DNA of 5,909 nt from Candidatus Heimdallarchaeota archaeon LC_3 (lineage in GTDB: Archaea > Asgardarchaeota > Heimdallarchaeia > Hodarchaeales > LC-3): contig MDVS01000129.1 in NCBI GenBank assembly GCA_001940645.1, positions 1-5,909 on the forward strand. The letters run 5' to 3'. The position numbers were made by a program, and so were the translations under genes. Positions 1 through 5,909 of this stretch are shown piece after piece. Positions within the stretch are counted from its first letter, which is position 1. Every line of letters starts with the position of its first letter. The notes beneath the pieces were generated by a model. It saw nothing but the letters and a program-made list of their open reading frames with translations, did not search any database and had not been told where the DNA came from.

Positions 1-201
1 AGAAAATTTTTCTTTAGATACTTTTTGCAATACAAAAACAGGATTATGTTCGGAATCTGACCACAATATTGCATCTAAATTTTTCCATAGTTCTAATGCA
101 TTATGATTCCAGTAAGACCATAAATTATATGCTAAAGCTCTCAAACCAGAAATTCGATCTGGTATTTTAGATAAATCGATTGGGAGTTGTTCATTGAACA
201 A
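1..201 (-). CDS. glgP: Alpha-glucan (glycogen/maltodextrin) phosphorylase, N-terminal fragment cut by window edge
   Basis: The first 67 codons of a longer gene are present; the rest lies beyond the left edge. The translation contains ISGLRALAYNLWSYW (residues 17-31), then LDAILW and HNPVFVLQKVS. This is the N-terminal signature of the DUF3417-containing, Thermotoga AgpA-type alpha-glucan phosphorylases, where a short opening is followed by LxxLAYNLWWSW and then HNPV. These cytoplasmic PLP enzymes release glucose-1-phosphate from alpha-1,4-glucans; the catalytic and PLP-binding parts are not in the window. The start chosen is TTG at 201-199: it lies just after an in-frame TAG, there is no in-frame ATG before the conserved region, and a GGTG motif sits 7 bases upstream. 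It is transcribed divergently from the L44e gene. The family is clear by eye; the symbol is less certain because glgP and malP names are used interchangeably. Confidence 0.85.
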   Translation of the reverse strand, partial: MFNEQLPIDLSKIPDRISGLRALAYNLWSYWNHNALELWKNLDAILWSDSEHNPVFVLQKVSKEKFS

Positions 202-208
202 ATAATTA

Positions 209-212
209 CACC
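209..212 (-). promoter_or_regulatory. Shine-Dalgarno-like GGTG before the phosphorylase start
   Basis: GGTG on the minus strand, 7 bases before the TTG at 201-199. It matches the anti-SD complement AGGTGATC and supports TTG as the start. Only four bases match, so the support is modest. Confidence 0.4.
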
Positions 213-355
213 GCTAATCAAAAAAAGAAATTAATTCAGAGTTTATTCTAATTTCTGGCTTGATAATATTAATGATAAATTTGTTTATAATGAATACTTT
301 TATTTGAAACAAGATTAATGAATAAATAAGAAACTAATAATTGAAGGTGTTCATT

Positions 356-403
356 GTGTTTTTATTTGATAATCTAACGAATGACCTAAAATTAAAAAAT
401 TAA
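356..403 (+). CDS. Possible 15-codon leader ORF upstream of L44e
   Basis: A GTG at 356 opens a 15-codon frame (MFLFDNLTNDLKLKN) ending in TAA at 401-403, 40 bases before the L44e start. It is noted only because AGGTG at 345-349 lies 6 bases before the GTG, a good ribosome-binding spacing. No homology is recognised, and a frame this short arises easily by chance. It could be a translated leader of the ribosomal-protein transcript if transcription starts upstream of 345; otherwise it is noise. Confidence 0.15.
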   Translation: MFLFDNLTNDLKLKN

Positions 404-430
404 TATACTAAAATAAATATAAATATTAAC

Positions 431-435
431 AAGGA
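431..435 (+). promoter_or_regulatory. Ribosome-binding site for L44e
   Basis: AAGGA ends 8 bases before the TTG at 444. It decides the start: there is no ATG before codon 18, and the spacing fits a normal Shine-Dalgarno interaction. Confidence 0.55.
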
Positions 436-443
436 CAAAAGAC

Positions 444-779
444 TTGACATATTTTGATAATCAGGATGAGCAAAATTTGAAAATTCCAGATTCTATGAGA
501 ACTTATTGCCCCAAATGTAATAAGTATAGTGTAATGAAGGTTTCAATCGAAAAAACTAGACAACGAAGTGGTGGGAAATCAAAAGGAGCACGGCGTCAAG
601 AACGGAACGCAAAAGGTTATGGTAATCATGGTAGATACTCTAAAAGACCAGTTGCTTCAAGGAACATGAGAGTCAAAACTTCAAAAAAAACTGATTTACG
701 ATTAAAGTGTCCAGATTGCTCGAAAAAATGGATTAGAAGTCGTCCAAGAGCAAAAAGAGTGGAAATACTTCGGAAATAG
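444..779 (+). CDS. rpl44e: Large ribosomal subunit protein L44e (eL42 family)
   Basis: A 111-residue basic protein of the archaeal/eukaryotic 60S-type subunit, located near the ribosomal E site in known structures. Two CxxC knuckles are visible, CPKC at 22-25 and CPDC at 89-92, giving the four zinc ligands of this family. Other family marks are RTYCPKCNK near the N-terminus, KGYGNHGR in the middle (the conserved KGYGG region), KKTDLRLKC before the second knuckle, and a basic RAKRVEILRK end. Archaeal members are usually about 90-95 residues; here about 16 extra polar or acidic residues precede the conserved part. The start is TTG with AAGGA 8 bases upstream. In many archaea L44e is followed by S27e; here the next gene, 90 bases on, is a signal peptidase, so that pairing is broken. 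The identification is strong. Confidence 0.93.
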   Translation: MTYFDNQDEQNLKIPDSMRTYCPKCNKYSVMKVSIEKTRQRSGGKSKGARRQERNAKGYGNHGRYSKRPVASRNMRVKTSKKTDLRLKCPDCSKKWIRSRPRAKRVEILRK

Positions 780-855
780 GAAGTTTCAAGAAAAGTATCC
801 TATTAGCATTATTTTCTATAATCGGATGATAGTTAATCCTTAATTGGATCAAAAT

Positions 856-859
856 AGGA
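856..859 (+). promoter_or_regulatory. Ribosome-binding site for the signal peptidase
   Basis: AGGA followed by 10 bases and then TTG at 870. No ATG occurs in frame before the first membrane segment, so this motif supports the TTG start. Confidence 0.45.
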
Positions 860-869
860 ACATATTTTA

Positions 870-2051
870 TTGAATAAAAATGAAAAGAATAATTCATCTT
901 TTAGTGAGAAAAATTTTCCTATTCTAAAAAATGGAATAGAATTATTATTTATGGTTTTAATTGCAGTTATTGTACTTATTTCTGTATTAACGGTTTTCAA
1001 TATCTATCTTGGAACAGGGACCCCTGTTGCTGTGACTACTACTTCTATGGCTCCTGTGTATGGTGGATTTAAACCAGATTTACTATTTGATGAACCTGAA
1101 CTTAGAAAGTATTATCTTCCTTTAGATGGTGATCTTCTTGTTTTGAAGAAACAAACTCCCCATCTTGGAGACACAATTGTATTCAAAAAAAATAGTGCCC
1201 ATACCCCTACACCTATAGTTCATAGAATTATCGCAATTCAAACTAATTCATCAGGGTTCGCTTATTATTTAACAAAGGGTGATAACAATTTTGGGACTGA
1301 TTATAAAAGATTTGGATGGATATCCGAAGATGAACTAATAGGGGTGGTTATAGGTAAAATACCGTCAATTGGTTGGTTGAGTTTAGAGATTCAGAATATA
1401 ACAATGCGTATATTTCTTATTATTGGTTTAGGTGTTTTGCTTTTATTGATGCTATTTGAAGAAGAAGATAAAAAAACTAAAGAAAAAGGAAATCACTATA
1501 AGAAAAGTAGTTCAGGAATTTTTTTAAAATTTTTTAACAAATTAAAGCCTAAATATTCAGGACTGAATTATAATAAATCTCGTTGGATTGTTAAAATGTT
1601 TTCCACACCAAAAGGAAATATTTTTACAGTTGCTTTAATAATAACAACTATTTTTTTAAGTTTAAATATTCAAAAAGCATTTGTTTTGAATAATGGGGTG
1701 AATATTACTTCCTCAAATACTCTTGAGCTCATAAATGCTGGACCAGAAAACATTGGTACAGGATTTTATTTCATTCATTTTGATCTTGAAATAATATCTC
1801 GGGGAATTTTTAACTGGGTTTATAAAATAGAATTGAGATTAAATAGTTCAGATAATGATGTAGTTTACATTTGGATTATACCATATTCTTTTGATGGTAA
1901 ATTGATTATTAAAAGTGGTTTTCCCATTTCACAAGAAATAATAACTTCTACTGGAAATTATTCAATAAACCTATATTATACGATATACTCTTTGGGTTTA
2001 TTTTCACAAGAGCCAGTAACACAGATGTTCAGTTTAAATTATTTGATTTGA
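870..2051 (+). CDS. Sec11-type signal peptidase I with a C-terminal Spc3/SPC22-23-like membrane-anchored domain
   Basis: A 393-residue membrane serine protease expected to remove signal peptides on the outer face of the membrane. Residues 23-47 form the first membrane helix. TTTSMAPVY carries nucleophile Ser59 in the SMxP motif; GDTIVFKK is the next conserved box; IVHRII provides His118, the Sec11/archaeal replacement for the bacterial lysine; KGDNNFGTD (136-144) supplies the conserved acidic box; GVVIGKIPSIGWL closes the catalytic core. Residues 179-197 are a second helix. A normal enzyme would stop about here, but another 195 residues follow: a basic, presumably cytoplasmic linker (198-249), a third helix (about 251-269) and a beta-rich outer domain (270-393). 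That domain has FIHFD at 301-305, IFNW at 313-316, VVYIW at 331-335 and an NYS sequon at 363, in the order I recall for eukaryotic SPCS3. The peptidase call is firm; the Spc3 relationship is inferred from motif alignment by eye. Confidence 0.9.
   Translation: MNKNEKNNSSFSEKNFPILKNGIELLFMVLIAVIVLISVLTVFNIYLGTGTPVAVTTTSMAPVYGGFKPDLLFDEPELRKYYLPLDGDLLVLKKQTPHLGDTIVFKKNSAHTPTPIVHRIIAIQTNSSGFAYYLTKGDNNFGTDYKRFGWISEDELIGVVIGKIPSIGWLSLEIQNITMRIFLIIGLGVLLLLMLFEEEDKKTKEKGNHYKKSSSGIFLKFFNKLKPKYSGLNYNKSRWIVKMFSTPKGNIFTVALIITTIFLSLNIQKAFVLNNGVNITSSNTLELINAGPENIGTGFYFIHFDLEIISRGIFNWVYKIELRLNSSDNDVVYIWIIPYSFDGKLIIKSGFPISQEIITSTGNYSINLYYTIYSLGLFSQEPVTQMFSLNYLI
1617..2048 (+). other. Spc3/SPC22-23-like segment within the signal peptidase: membrane helix plus outer beta domain
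   Basis: Residues 250-393 of the signal peptidase. Their layout, an N-terminal helix entering from a basic cytoplasmic stretch followed by about 125 outer residues, is the type II topology of Spc3/SPCS3. From memory, human SPCS3 has FITFD, then IFDW 12 residues after the start of that motif, a lysine three after the W, a VVLW strand, an NVT sequon and a late G-I/L stretch. Here FIHFD, IFNW with the same 12-residue offset, Lys319 three after Trp316, VVYIW, NYS and SLGLF occur in the same order. Three sequons (278, 325, 363) fit an extracellular location. Confidence 0.6.
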
Positions 2052-2064
2052 AAACTAAAAACCA

Positions 2065-2550
2065 CTATTGATCCCCTTTCATAATGTATAATGATACATG
2101 GTGTCTTTTAAAGTTTAGACTTTCCCAGAATTTAGTTTCAAAACTTGAAAATGCTTCAGCACGAAGTTGTTGCCCACGTATACATTTTTTTTCGAGGATA
2201 ATATTTAATAATTTTCTTCCAATTCGTCTTCGTCTAAATTCGTGAAGTACATAAATCCCCCGAATATAAAAGGCATTTTCTTTTATTCTCGTTGCATCGA
2301 TTTCAATAAAACCAACAATTTGACGGTCTATCTCTCCTGATTTCTCTATTTCGACATTTTCTGCTAATAAAACATTTCCTGGGTGTAATTCAATTCTTTC
2401 TAACATTTCTACACCCACAGATTGAGCAAAACCTGGAATTATCGTATCCTGCATTGCAGCTACTGCAAAATCATAAATAGTGCCAACATCATCTGGAGTT
2501 GCGAATCTGTATTCAATTATGTGCTTCGTTTCATCATGTGTCATATACAT
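2065..2550 (-). CDS. GNAT-family N-acetyltransferase, substrate unknown
   Basis: A 161-residue soluble protein with the GNAT fold, expected to move an acetyl group from acetyl-CoA to an amine. The N-terminal strand and helix are IIEYRFATPDDVGTIYDFA (11-29). A central strand QIVGFIEID (77-85) leads to FYIRGIYVLHEFRRRRIGRKLL (94-115), where the acetyl-CoA loop is R106-RRRIG-R112; the first glycine of the usual RxxGxG motif is replaced by Arg109 while Gly111 is kept. LRAEAF and then SFETKFWESLNFKRH is the usual C-terminal strand-helix-strand with the FWExLGF pattern. RimI-like protein acetylation is possible but not shown. AGGA lies 4 bases before the ATG at 2550 and 10 before a second ATG at 2544, so translation may begin at either. 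It converges on the signal peptidase with a 13-base gap. Confidence 0.82.
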   Translation of the reverse strand: MYMTHDETKHIIEYRFATPDDVGTIYDFAVAAMQDTIIPGFAQSVGVEMLERIELHPGNVLLAENVEIEKSGEIDRQIVGFIEIDATRIKENAFYIRGIYVLHEFRRRRIGRKLLNIILEKKCIRGQQLRAEAFSSFETKFWESLNFKRHHVSLYIMKGDQ

Positions 2551-2592
2551 AATTTCCTAATTTTGTTTAGAAAGTTTTTTTGGATCTAATCA

Positions 2593-2600
2593 CTTTTATA
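2593..2600 (-). promoter_or_regulatory. Candidate TATA box for the acetyltransferase
   Basis: TATAAAAG on the minus strand, about 43 bases before the ATG at 2550. The usual archaeal spacing of about 25 bases would put the transcript start near 2570, giving a leader of about 20 bases that contains the AGGA site. The surroundings are AT-rich, so this remains a candidate. Confidence 0.35.
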
Positions 2601-2739
2601 TTGATTAATTTTTATTATTTAATTAATTAATTTAATTATTGATGTCAAAATAAAGAATAATGTTGAGTGTAAAATGAAATCTATAGATATTGTTTTACAT
2701 AATATGCATATCTTCTGAAAGTAATTTCTTTGTTTTTAT

Positions 2740-2797
2740 CCTGAAACTTGAACTTTATTCTTAATATATTGAATATTAATTAAAAAATAGTTTCAGG
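2740..2797. repeat. Perfect 9-bp inverted repeat flanking the regulator's promoter region
   Basis: CCTGAAACT at 2740-2748 and its exact reverse complement AGTTTCAGG at 2789-2797 are separated by 40 bases. The right arm runs into the AGGTAGGT ribosome-binding region of the winged-helix gene, and a TATA-like TTAATATATT (2761-2770) lies between the arms. A further CTGAAA at 2715-2720 repeats the left-arm core 26 bases upstream. The arms are more GC-rich than their surroundings. It may be an operator pair for the regulator itself, or an RNA hairpin hiding the ribosome-binding site if transcription begins before 2740. Confidence 0.45.
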
Positions 2798-2802
2798 TAG
2801 GT
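2795..2802 (+). promoter_or_regulatory. Ribosome-binding site for the winged-helix regulator
   Basis: AGGTAGGT ends 7 bases before the ATG at 2810. It favours this ATG over the internal ATGs at 2843 and 2855, which lie before the conserved domain and cannot be excluded by homology. Confidence 0.55.
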
Positions 2803-2809
2803 ACGTTCT

Positions 2810-3091
2810 ATGAAAAGTTTTTATGTTGAACCAACCAATAAAATGGAAGAAAATATGAATAAGACTTTATTAACACAAGATATTAGTTCCTTAGATGCTT
2901 CAGTTCTTAATATTTTGAAAAAACAAGGGCCAATAACAAGAGGACAATTAGTGAAAAAAACAGGGATACCAAGATCGACATTGTATGATTCATTGTTTAG
3001 ATTAATGTTAAAGGGTTTGGTGAAAAAATTCCCAGATAGAACAAATGTCTCACGAGGTAGACCCCAAGTATTTTTTGAGGCAAATACTTAA
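2810..3091 (+). CDS. Small winged helix-turn-helix transcriptional regulator
   Basis: A 93-residue protein consisting almost entirely of one winged-helix DNA-binding domain of the broad MarR/TrmB-like type. Residues 28-38 (LDASVLNILKK) form helix 1, ITRGQLVKKTG (42-52) helix 2, IPRSTLYDSLFRLMLKGL (53-70) the recognition helix, and 71-90 the wing, ending in SRGRPQVFFE. The first 26 residues are polar and show no recognisable domain. There is no ligand-binding or dimerisation domain, so it probably acts as a simple DNA-binding dimer. It stands alone, divergent from the acetyltransferase and convergent with Elf1, with an inverted repeat in its upstream region that may be its own operator. The target genes cannot be told from sequence. 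Confidence 0.82.
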   Translation: MKSFYVEPTNKMEENMNKTLLTQDISSLDASVLNILKKQGPITRGQLVKKTGIPRSTLYDSLFRLMLKGLVKKFPDRTNVSRGRPQVFFEANT

Positions 3092-3106
3092 GAGTCTAAG
3101 GTTGAG

Positions 3107-3115
3107 TTCTTTTTT
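3107..3115 (+). terminator. Poly-T terminator after the winged-helix gene
   Basis: TTCTTTTTT lies 16 bases after the stop codon in the 74-base convergent gap. Archaeal RNA polymerase commonly terminates at such U-rich tracts without a hairpin. Confidence 0.45.
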
Positions 3116-3127
3116 ATTAATTATTGG

Positions 3128-3134
3128 AAAAAAA
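3128..3134 (-). terminator. Poly-T terminator after Elf1
   Basis: Seven A bases on the plus strand give a U7 tract on the minus-strand transcript, 31 bases after the Elf1 stop. It lies in the convergent gap opposite the plus-strand terminator. Confidence 0.4.
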
Positions 3135-3165
3135 TGAGAGCATATGTGAATATTATTCATATATA

Positions 3166-3666
3166 TTATTTACGGATTTTGAAATCGTACTTTTTTTTAT
3201 TGTCATCTTCATCTAAGTCATCATCTTCGGTGGTATATTCGTCTTCATCTTTTGTGATATCGTCGTTTTCACTACTAATTGTGGTTTTTGGTGATTCTTT
3301 AGAAATGGTTTGAGTCGAGTCTTTAGAAATATCTTCATTATTTTCTTTTGAGTCTTTTTCATCTGTAGCATCAGTATCTGTTACTGGAGTTTCGGTTTCA
3401 TATTCTTCAGAGGCTTCTCCTCTCTCTAATTCTTCATAGAAATTATCTACCCAAATTCCAAAAATGTCAACCTTATCATGAAGGCGTTTCAATTCGGTAA
3501 AAGTTTTTGTAATATGACAATTACCACACATAACAGTTGCAATACGAACAGGATGTTCTTTAATCTCAATTTTAACTGCTTCTGCTTCGCATCTCGGGCA
3601 CTCGAAAATTGTTGGTAAACTGGGTCGAGGTCTTGTTACGACTTTCCTATGTAATTTTCTTCCCAT
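3166..3666 (-). CDS. Elf1-type transcription elongation factor (zinc ribbon) with a long acidic tail
   Basis: A 166-residue protein. It opens MGRKLHRKVV, like the basic MGK/R start of eukaryotic Elf1, followed by a zinc ribbon: FECPRC (C23, C26) and VMCGNC (C47, C50). Next come the family's closing helices, with KVDIFGIWVDNFYEEL (65-80) matching the Elf1 pattern DVYSxWxDxxEE. In eukaryotes Elf1 binds RNA polymerase II at the DNA entry side and helps it pass nucleosomes; some archaea encode homologues. Residues 83-156 form a low-complexity tail rich in Asp, Glu, Ser and Thr, ending in a short basic KKKYDFKIRK. Such a tail is known from yeast Elf1; archaeal members as I remember them are shorter. 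The ATG at 3666 has a weak GGATG upstream. The gene follows the surface-protein gene by 33 bases and is probably cotranscribed with it. Confidence 0.85.
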   Translation of the reverse strand: MGRKLHRKVVTRPRPSLPTIFECPRCEAEAVKIEIKEHPVRIATVMCGNCHITKTFTELKRLHDKVDIFGIWVDNFYEELERGEASEEYETETPVTDTDATDEKDSKENNEDISKDSTQTISKESPKTTISSENDDITKDEDEYTTEDDDLDEDDNKKKYDFKIRK

Positions 3667-3699
3667 TTATATTACATCCATTTTTTAATAATACTTATT

Positions 3700-4899
3700 T
3701 TATTTGCTTTTTTTCTTTCTTCTAGAAGACTTTATTTGCTTTTTACCTTTTTCATATTGCTTCTTATTATTATTAGATTTTGTCTTTTCTTTTGGTTGTT
3801 CCTGACTTTCTCTTTTAATTGTTGGAGTTACAGTTACTTGAGGAATTACATCTTTATTTCTAATAAATAAAATAAACCCAGTAATAATAAATATTGCACC
3901 TAAGATTATTTGACCTGTTATTAATATAAGCAAAAAATCAAAGTTTTTTTGTGGTTGATCAACGGAATTTTCATTTTGAGTCCAATTTATTGAATCTATC
4001 CAAACTTCTGCATTACTAGCAGTGTTTAACCAAGAAACACTTGTTGAATTTGTTGAATCAGGTCCTGAAAGATCGGAAAACATAAGAGCAGATCCCATTA
4101 GAAATAATCTTGATGTTGTAAGTTCACTAGGATAACCACCTAGGATTACAGGACTATCTTGACCTAGATCAAACGTCCCATCAGAAGCAACGCCGAAAGC
4201 ATCTAAACCAGCTTCAACCATTATATATTCATGGAGGATTTCTACGTGATTACTTTTTGTAACAATTTTGCTTCCATTCTTAAATGAAAATTCAGAGCTA
4301 TTGAGTAAAGGAATAGTGAGAATGGTAATATCATCATAAGAACCTTTTTCTAGTTTTTGTATTGCTATTCCTTCACCAGACGATCCAGCAGAAAACCTAC
4401 TTGCTGGAAAAGCATCTAATCCATTTAGAATTTGGTTTAAATTATTATTATTCATATCTAAGGTGCTATTAGAAGTATAAGGATTTGATAAAAGAATGAA
4501 TCCATGTCTTGGTTGTAAAATCCACTCATTAATATAAGAAATTTCTTGATCAGAATACCGATAATTAAGTTCTTGTCCTGAAGGAGCTTTTGGAGAACCA
4601 GTAATGATTAATATATCTATTCCAGTCAATGATGTTCTATTTAAAGGTTCAGATGAAAATCTAACAGAAAAATTGTTACTAGTTAAGAGATCAAGAGCAC
4701 CTTTCATTATAGTGGAATTGAAATATTGATTTTTTCCTTGATGAAACATCACAATAGCTTTAGGATTAGTAGTGTCCGTGTTTTGATCTGTAGAGGCTAT
4801 TACTCCTATATTACTTTGATAGAGGCTTATAATTGTAATCATTACTAGTGTTAAGGCAATTACATTATGTTTTTTTCTCAAAAACTTCAAAACTTCCAC
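3700..4899 (-). CDS. Membrane-anchored surface protein with an OST48/DUF4350-like (GATase-like) domain
   Basis: A 399-residue predicted exported type I membrane protein. Residues 12-28 are a hydrophobic signal segment with a possible cleavage site near VIA-S (33-36). Residues 46-140 look like a Rossmann-type alpha/beta domain: KAIVMFHQGKNQYF, a helix, FSVRF, GIDILIITGSP, then SDQEISYINEWI and HGFILLSNP, the pattern of DUF4350/GldG-type domains and of the N-terminal part of OST48/Wbp1. RLFLMGSALMFSD (264-276) resembles an OST48 stretch I recall as RVIFSGSLDFFSD. A membrane helix (about 321-347) precedes a 50-residue Lys/Arg-rich cytoplasmic tail. Seven N-x-S/T sequons lie in the outer part. 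An oligosaccharyltransferase subunit role is possible but unproven. The GTG at 4899 is the longest reading; TTG at 4890 is better placed relative to the ribosome-binding site. Elf1 follows 33 bases downstream. Confidence 0.72.
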   Translation of the reverse strand: MEVLKFLRKKHNVIALTLVMITIISLYQSNIGVIASTDQNTDTTNPKAIVMFHQGKNQYFNSTIMKGALDLLTSNNFSVRFSSEPLNRTSLTGIDILIITGSPKAPSGQELNYRYSDQEISYINEWILQPRHGFILLSNPYTSNSTLDMNNNNLNQILNGLDAFPASRFSAGSSGEGIAIQKLEKGSYDDITILTIPLLNSSEFSFKNGSKIVTKSNHVEILHEYIMVEAGLDAFGVASDGTFDLGQDSPVILGGYPSELTTSRLFLMGSALMFSDLSGPDSTNSTSVSWLNTASNAEVWIDSINWTQNENSVDQPQKNFDFLLILITGQIILGAIFIITGFILFIRNKDVIPQVTVTPTIKRESQEQPKEKTKSNNNKKQYEKGKKQIKSSRRKKKSK

Positions 4900-4901
4900 C
4901 T
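4897..4901 (-). promoter_or_regulatory. Ribosome-binding site that argues for a TTG start at 4890
   Basis: AGGTG on the minus strand overlaps the GTG at 4899-4897 itself, so it cannot serve that codon. It stands 6 bases before an in-frame TTG at 4890-4888, which would give a protein three residues shorter, starting with M then KFLRKK. The signal segment is intact either way. Confidence 0.5.
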
Positions 4902-4968
4902 ATTTTGTTGATACGTATAATTATTAGAAGATTTATAACTTTATTCTCTAATTATTTGTCTATATTTT

Positions 4969-4976
4969 AATATAAA
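4969..4976 (-). promoter_or_regulatory. Candidate TATA box for the surface protein-Elf1 transcript
   Basis: TTTATATT on the minus strand, about 70-80 bases before the start codon, close to the archaeal TATA consensus. It would place the transcript start near 4945. A second possible box, TTATAAAT near 4935, would give a very short leader. The choice cannot be settled by eye. Confidence 0.3.
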
Positions 4977-5258
4977 CACGAATTCTCCCCTTAAGAAAAG
5001 CTAAAAAGATTTCATATAAAGATTCATTGTAAAAAAAAAATATTATGAGTCTTGATAATAACTCCTATGATAAAAATACCACAAAATTTCTTTTAAAAAA
5101 TATATACTTGACATGCTATGATAAAAAATTTTTACTAAAAAGGTAGAATTGCATTCCTCCAAAAGTACAACAAAAATCCTAATCTTGCTTTTAAATTCCA
5201 AATAAAAATCATTTTCAATTTCAATTTATCGAAAAATTACTTGTAAACCAATGATTTG

Positions 5259-5267
5259 AAAAAAAAA
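5259..5267 (-). terminator. Candidate poly-U terminator after the EF-1A-like gene
   Basis: Nine A bases on the plus strand give a U9 tract on the minus strand, 79 bases after the stop at 5347. It lies in the loop of an 8-bp inverted repeat (5237-5244 with 5275-5282). U tracts are frequent in AT-rich DNA, so this is tentative. Confidence 0.35.
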
Positions 5268-5346
5268 TTAATTAACAAGTAAGATCAAAAATTCACTCAA
5301 CACAAGTTATAGAAATCAAACTGTTTTGAATAAATTAATGGTTGAC

Positions 5347-5909
5347 TTATTTGAAAAAATCGGTAACTATACCCACTGCTATGGTTTGACCAGCATGTCG
5401 CATTACTAATCTTCCTAGAATTGGCTGATCACTGTATTTTTCTACGATTATTGGATTTTGAGTTTTAATTTCTAAAGAAACTAAATCTCCAGGAAATGCT
5501 AGCATAATGGATTTATCTTTTCTTGGTTTTTTAGTTTTTTCTACTTTTAAAATTCGTTGAATTCGTGCAGAAGTATGTGATAGACCAACGTGGATTAATG
5601 GATTACTTCCTGGTATTAGAGGTCTACCTTCAGTTTCTAATACTAAAACCCGGCAAATTATGGTGGTAGATGGTCTTAATTCTGTATTATTTGAGCAAAT
5701 TACTGTTCCTGGAATTAATCTGTCCCGTTCTATCCCTTTGATTTGTATTCGACCAAAATCTCCTGCATTCAATATGGGAATGGATTCAGAATGAATATCT
5801 AATAAATCTTTAATAATACCTTTATCAGCTGATGGTAATAATTTTATATTTTGTTCAATTTTTAAAGTACCTGCAATTAAACGCCCATATAACATATTAC
5901 CAACTCCAG
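5347..5909 (-). CDS. EF-1A-family translational GTPase, C-terminal domains II and III; probably a divergent paralogue
   Basis: Only the last 186 codons are in the window; the GTP-binding domain lies beyond the right edge. The visible part opens GVGNMLYGRLIAGTLK, matching the GVGTVxxGRVxxGxL start of domain II in EF-1A, eRF3 and Hbs1. The ATG at 5895 is therefore internal, not a start. Domain II continues through NAGDFGRIQIKGIERDRLIPG. Domain III runs from about residue 90 (counting from the internal Met) and closes with PIIVEKYSDQPILGRLVM and RHAGQTIAVGIVTDFF, the family's C-terminal barrel. Canonical aEF1A normally has HHEPLxxAxPGDNxGFNVRG in domain II; here it reads HSESIPILNAGDFGRIQIKG, and the domain III region before GD is shortened. 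This suggests a paralogue acting with a release or rescue factor or another partner rather than tRNA, but the G domain is needed to tell. The superfamily is clear; the subfamily is not. Confidence 0.78.
   Translation of the reverse strand, partial: GVGNMLYGRLIAGTLKIEQNIKLLPSADKGIIKDLLDIHSESIPILNAGDFGRIQIKGIERDRLIPGTVICSNNTELRPSTTIICRVLVLETEGRPLIPGSNPLIHVGLSHTSARIQRILKVEKTKKPRKDKSIMLAFPGDLVSLEIKTQNPIIVEKYSDQPILGRLVMRHAGQTIAVGIVTDFFK

Follow-up and report, generated by a model that had tools for sequence, protein, structure and literature searches.

A widespread signal peptidase of Asgard archaea with a candidate accessory outer domain in the same chain

Does the signal peptidase of a Hodarchaeales-like archaeon carry, in one chain with its catalytic half, a counterpart of the eukaryotic accessory subunit Spc3 (SPCS3, SPC22/23)? 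The question is raised by a stretch of 5,909 nucleotides of Candidatus Heimdallarchaeota archaeon LC_3 (contig MDVS01000129.1, positions 1 to 5,909 of the forward strand), below called the window. It contains an uninterrupted open reading frame (ORF) at 870-2051 (+), encoding a fused signal peptidase of 393 residues. The ORF has a TTG start, whose position agrees with that in relatives, and no in-frame stop. The encoded protein represents a widespread, apparently new variant of a known enzyme. With fair probability, it serves its Hodarchaeales-like host as the main type I signal peptidase and has an outer accessory domain acting in cis.

All parts of the chain are given on the + strand. The first transmembrane helix TM1 (residues 17-46, positions 918-1007) is a helix in the AlphaFold2 (AF2) model and covers most of a hydropathy peak at residues 16-51. 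It is followed by the Sec11-type catalytic domain (residues 47-167, 1008-1370) and by TM2 (residues 177-203, 1398-1478), predicted by the AF2 model and hydropathy. The cytosolic linker (residues 204-246, 1479-1607) is basic, with 11 lysines and arginines versus one acidic residue, and has a predicted local distance difference test score (pLDDT) of 45-51 over residues 201-240. TM3 (residues 247-272, 1608-1685) is predicted by the full AF2 model, the domain model and hydropathy. The remainder is the outer beta domain (residues 273-393, 1686-2048), predicted by both models and compared with known structures by Foldseek and VIA. It has seven strands in the full model, and eight in the domain-only model (pLDDT 86.2) when short ones are counted. 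A single helix followed by an outer domain matches the arrangement of Spc3. Since the two outer parts are separated by two crossings, TM2 and TM3, and a basic linker, both should face outside; we infer from this orientation that the outer domain lies on the same side of the membrane as the Sec11 active site.

The N-terminal half is, as judged from sequence, a type I signal peptidase of the Sec11/archaeal S26B type, and cleavage activity is predicted. It matches SEC11A/C with E 4.4e-8, and with E 6.8e-23 by profile. The NCBIfam model TIGR02228 gives 51.8 bits, 0.05 bit below the cut-off of 51.85, which is exceeded by the relatives P0003 (54.6), P0008 (64.0), L001 (75.3) and L081; the Pfam Peptidase_S26 score is 13.2 bits versus a cut-off of 22.9. 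The predicted nucleophile Ser59 in SMxP (1044-1046), the predicted general base His118 in VHR (1221-1223), and Asp138 and Asp144 of the GDNN...D box (1281-1301) are unchanged in all 42 rows of the long-form alignment, window included. Thus the preliminary description of the locus, which had listed these residues, a complete Sec11-like half followed by an extra helix, a basic linker, a third helix and an outer beta domain, and the placement of both domains on one side of the membrane, agrees with the alignment, the ORF, the AF2 models and hydropathy, the side of the membrane following from the crossings as above.

Two observations concern the catalytic half in other genomes. Among fused enzymes, those of the Hodarchaeota type and some others have an insertion after SMxP (window residues 63-86, nucleotides 1056-1127), which neither human SEC11 nor the two fused groups that diverge most possess. 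As aligned, a fused copy from G227 (L035:1306-2457) shows no SMxP serine motif, and may be inactive or in a wrong frame at this point.

Ten proteins, including that of the window itself, matched in the first search; P0003, the closest relative with a name, is encoded in a Hodarchaeales metagenome-assembled genome and is 51% identical. A profile search gave 85 matches, the weaker ones being ordinary signal peptidases of other build. Fused and split versions, whose survey had been proposed in the preliminary description, were then counted in 227 genomes of the Asgard phylum, with up to eight candidates per genome scored by the full profile and up to 15 by the outer-domain profile. At E <= 0.01 the former matches 197 genomes and the latter 38. 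The outer domain and the Sec11 sequence share one ORF in 31 genomes, all with E <= 5e-4; in one of these, G054, the Sec11 part is interrupted by stops. The remaining seven matches (E 0.0016-0.0092) are probably due to chance. Five more genomes (G007, G036, G037, G038, G041) contain ORFs of 364-418 amino acids with the same layout and Trp335 kept; their outer domains are too divergent for the profile and can be aligned over the outer domain. No free-standing outer domain was found at E <= 1e-3 among the candidates scored in the 227 genomes, a number so limited that a divergent copy could escape detection. The fused layout is old. In this survey it turned up in Asgard archaea only, among which Hodarchaeales and several further groups have it. 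Thirteen Hodarchaeota-type genomes, including G001 (named Hodarchaeota), match over almost the entire length with more than 218 bits. In 11 of the 13 there is a single Sec11 match, and thus the fused enzyme is probably the housekeeping one. A separate case is G056 with two fused genes (C21, C1), of which the second was assigned on the basis of its match coordinates and the length of its open frame.

Conserved residues of the outer domain were counted in 39 of the 42 rows, window included, as the C-terminal parts of P0028, P0035 and P0043 are odd, short or have long inserts; the same rows were used for the profiles. The constants are S310 (39/39), G312 (38/39), W335 (38/39), Y339 (39/39) and G376 (39/39). 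Of all residues of the domain, Trp335 (1872-1874) is conserved in the widest range of sequences; in the divergent set A8 all 17 rows have it. S310, G312 and Y339 differ from the constants of Spc3, whereas W335 and G376 have plausible counterparts by eye (W114 and G163 in yeast), which is suggestive only. A second fused group (L036-L041, L043, L044) has a different conserved motif in the outer domain, PG(H/Y)WHQ...W..(V/I)YNFEG.K.

The resemblance to SPCS3 had initially been proposed on the basis of a gapless alignment. The match of residues 301-319 (1770-1826), FIHFDLEIISRGIFNWVYK against FITFDITADLENIFDWNVK of the SPCS3 piece, is real, with 8/19 identical positions, and it is the best gapless 19-mer. 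However, it is equalled by 3/150 shuffles. When residues 269-393 are aligned locally to the SPCS3 piece, 99/3000 shuffles reach the score of 41 (shuffled mean 28.7); neither value is clearly above chance. Moreover, most matched positions are poorly conserved: F304 is found in 5, D305 in 3 and W316 in 9 of the 39 rows, and even the most frequent of the eight identical positions, K319, F314 and F301, occur in 20, 18 and 16 rows, respectively. The FNWNTKQ-type segment is replaced by FNT, FNF, FNN or HWHQ elsewhere in the family; the motif is mostly private to the window sequence.

Profile searches, also proposed at the outset, gave no match to the Pfam SPC22 family (PF04573) over its cut-off of 25 bits in any of the 42 long-form rows. 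One row, P0003, matched below the cut-off, with 16.5 bits and E 0.0061, its TM3 being aligned to the start of the profile; in the same scan families without evident relationship score E 0.0003-0.002. There was likewise no match over the cut-off in 21 sequences, for which SPC22 is not among the best 25 of 32 families listed (to E 0.12), in ten of the 14 divergent ORFs, which were scanned, or in the 227 genomes, where the SPC22 model picked out no fused gene among the matches listed. Comparison by hhalign with an alignment of 34 yeast-Spc3 hits (the named ones being budding yeasts) and one human piece gave E 0.07-0.66 with each of five clades and with the pooled 74 outer domains, in no shared register; a broader sample of eukaryotic Spc3 could alter this outcome. 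Among the matches listed (120 of 355 Spc3 hits), the outer-domain profile scores on average 1.24 bits, versus 0.54 for reversed and -0.46 for shuffled sequences, and the best real score, 8.8, is below that of the best decoy, 11.9. In pairwise comparisons of the 74 Asgard outer domains, the mean Z is -0.13 with the human SPCS3 piece and 0.38 with yeast Spc3, the controls being 40 unrelated segments (mean 0.05, sd 0.43, maximum 1.13). The two most divergent groups, of 6 and 8 sequences, reach 1.03 and 1.18 with yeast Spc3, at the edge of the controls. Taken together, the profile-profile, profile-sequence and pairwise tests are at or near chance.

In a Foldseek search over 350,542 chains, run blind to the Spc3 hypothesis, human SPCS3 ranked first with the full model (prob 1.00, TM-scores 0.21/0.40) and second with the domain alone (prob 1.00, 0.40/0.37). 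On the other hand, SPCS3 is not among the best 50 VIA matches listed for the outer domain, and by Foldseek TM-score and VIA the luminal domain of TMEM106B and other sandwiches fit better. The predicted fold is a beta-sandwich, and is not specifically that of SPCS3; taken with the lack of an SPC22 match, this goes half-way towards what the preliminary description had named as grounds for abandoning the relationship.

Phylogenetic trees of Sec11 have low weight, as they are built on 163 or 164 columns and their eukaryotic part consists of four long-branched rows. In a quick tree built from 80 rows, the eukaryotes stay unresolved near the root of the drawing. With four long rows dropped (76 rows), the tests did not reject the grouping of all fused forms (p-AU, the p-value of the approximately unbiased test, 0.669), that of eukaryotes with fused forms (0.671) or that of eukaryotes with the Hodarchaeota-type fused forms (0.694); the free search on these rows missed better trees. 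A single origin of the fused forms is therefore not rejected. In the careful search, with 18 rows dropped (62 rows), constraining eukaryotes with the fused forms costs 14.72 log units (p-AU 0.246), and with all unfused ones 2.13 log units (p-AU 0.451); neither is rejected.

How could such a protein work? TM1 would anchor the protease, whose Ser-His-Asp site would lie extracellularly and close to the surface of the membrane. Next, the chain would cross back via TM2, pass through the basic cytosolic linker and leave again via TM3, so that the C-terminal beta-sandwich ends up on the protease side of the membrane. There it probably acts in cis, packing near the catalytic domain and stabilizing it or helping to position substrates. 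In the human complex the catalytic domain of SEC11 is stabilized by the luminal domain of SPCS3 (PMC11579918). By analogy, the fused domain is most likely a cis-acting accessory domain working like Spc3, taking in one chain the part that SPCS3 plays in trans.

Several observations weigh against this assignment. The full AF2 model is of moderate confidence (pLDDT 73.8, predicted TM-score 0.68), with pLDDT below 50 around Ser59, and contact between the catalytic and outer domains is putative. All 22 unfused Asgard ORFs that were opened, chosen because their profile match stopped early, have 186-260 amino acids and no outer domain, which means that catalysis as such can do without it. The sequence of the outer domain also changes fast, W335 being its sole invariant residue across the divergent groups.

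The origin of the domain is a separate matter. It may, tentatively, be a true homologue of Spc3/SPC22 together with TM3, derived from a shared one-chain ancestor that was split in eukaryotes; this is a special case of the accessory-domain assignment. In the form given by the preliminary description, an archaeal ancestor or counterpart of the eukaryotic subunit, the idea is favored by a chain that unites a Sec11 half with a helix and an outer beta part, in archaea of a group often regarded as closest to eukaryotes, by the single Sec11 match in 11 of 13 Hodarchaeota-type genomes, and by the Foldseek ranks of SPCS3. It is weakened by the absence of SPC22 matches, the hhalign E-values, the low TM-scores and the trees, in which eukaryotes are not united with the fused forms. 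Indeed, the careful tree places eukaryotic Sec11, with its long branch, among the unfused Asgard enzymes (98/93), an argument against its origin from a fused gene. It is less likely than not that Spc3/SPCS3 has in this domain its prokaryotic ancestor or sister, and that the two-subunit eukaryotic core arose, as Sec11 and Spc3, by the splitting of one Heimdallarchaeia-type chain during eukaryogenesis. An unrelated sandwich of the Ig, LEA2 or FN3 type, acquired by an Asgard signal peptidase for a purpose other than help in cleavage (for example docking, be it to the translocon, to glycans or to the cell surface), is possible to a similarly limited degree. However, the domain sits on a signal peptidase in the 31 fused genomes, and this, with S310, Y339 and G376 kept in all 39 rows, suggests a role tied to the protease. 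The TRAP subunits alpha and beta have the helix after the outer domain and not before it, which also counts against this explanation. Finally, the joining of two genes by misassembly or chance read-through is extremely improbable: no support for it was found, whereas the same layout recurs in many separate contigs and genomes, and the ORF has no in-frame stop.

The fused gene has a conserved neighbor. The ribosomal protein gene rpl44e (444-779, +; Pfam Ribosomal_L44, E 2.8e-12) adjoins it in 12 of the 13 Hodarchaeota-type genomes (loci L001, L022-L028, L030-L034). In 11 of these 12 rpl44e has the opposite orientation; the window differs. At three of three loci with unfused Asgard sec11 (L046, L051, L090), the gene has an Alba-like gene on one side and, on the other, an OB-fold/acetyl-CoA acetyltransferase pair, as named by eye. 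The window also encodes, at 3700-4899 (-), a predicted exported protein of 399 amino acids with a C-terminal hydrophobic stretch and a basic tail, matching no family over the cut-off.

One published analysis makes Hodarchaeales the sister group of eukaryotes (PMC10307638), and another dissents (PMC12395588). Eukaryotic-type translocon partners, subunits of oligosaccharyltransferase (OST) and of the translocon-associated protein complex (TRAP), have been reported in Asgard archaea (PMC10307638, PMC11417166). The available text of these two papers names parts of Sec61, OST and TRAP, but no signal peptidase accessory subunit, and "signal peptid" occurs 0 times in the main text of PMC10307638. Searches of open-licence papers, by title and opening of the abstract, yielded no published description of the fused protein or of an Asgard Spc3, nor a report of any signal peptidase accessory subunit in Asgard archaea. 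The single chain, which joins a signal peptidase to a candidate accessory domain, is a concrete, testable model for how the two-subunit core could have arisen. With the ancestry of Spc3 outlined above, this core would go back to one chain. Should the domain prove unrelated to Spc3, Asgard lineages would still add in cis, beside their signal peptidase, something akin to what eukaryotes put together in trans.

Compared with known systems, the protein has in common with archaeal and eukaryotic type I signal peptidases (S26B, Sec11; TIGR02228) the catalytic half, the Ser, His and Asp residues and TM1, and is longer by about 190 residues, comprising the linker, TM3 and the outer beta domain. The best Foldseek fit of the domain alone is the luminal domain of TMEM106B (8b7d, TM-scores 0.53/0.56), which is not a part of a protease and is 12% identical. 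TRAP also has a beta-sandwich on the outer side, next to the translocon; the matching chain is 8b6l_E (0.49/0.51), from a structure of Sec61 with TRAP in which its subunit is unnamed. The TRAP subunits, however, are separate proteins, unlike the single chain in the window. Spc3/SPCS3 is similar in having a helix and then an outer beta domain beside Sec11, and is ranked first or second by Foldseek; it differs in being a separate chain in eukaryotes, in a low TM-score and in mostly different invariant residues.
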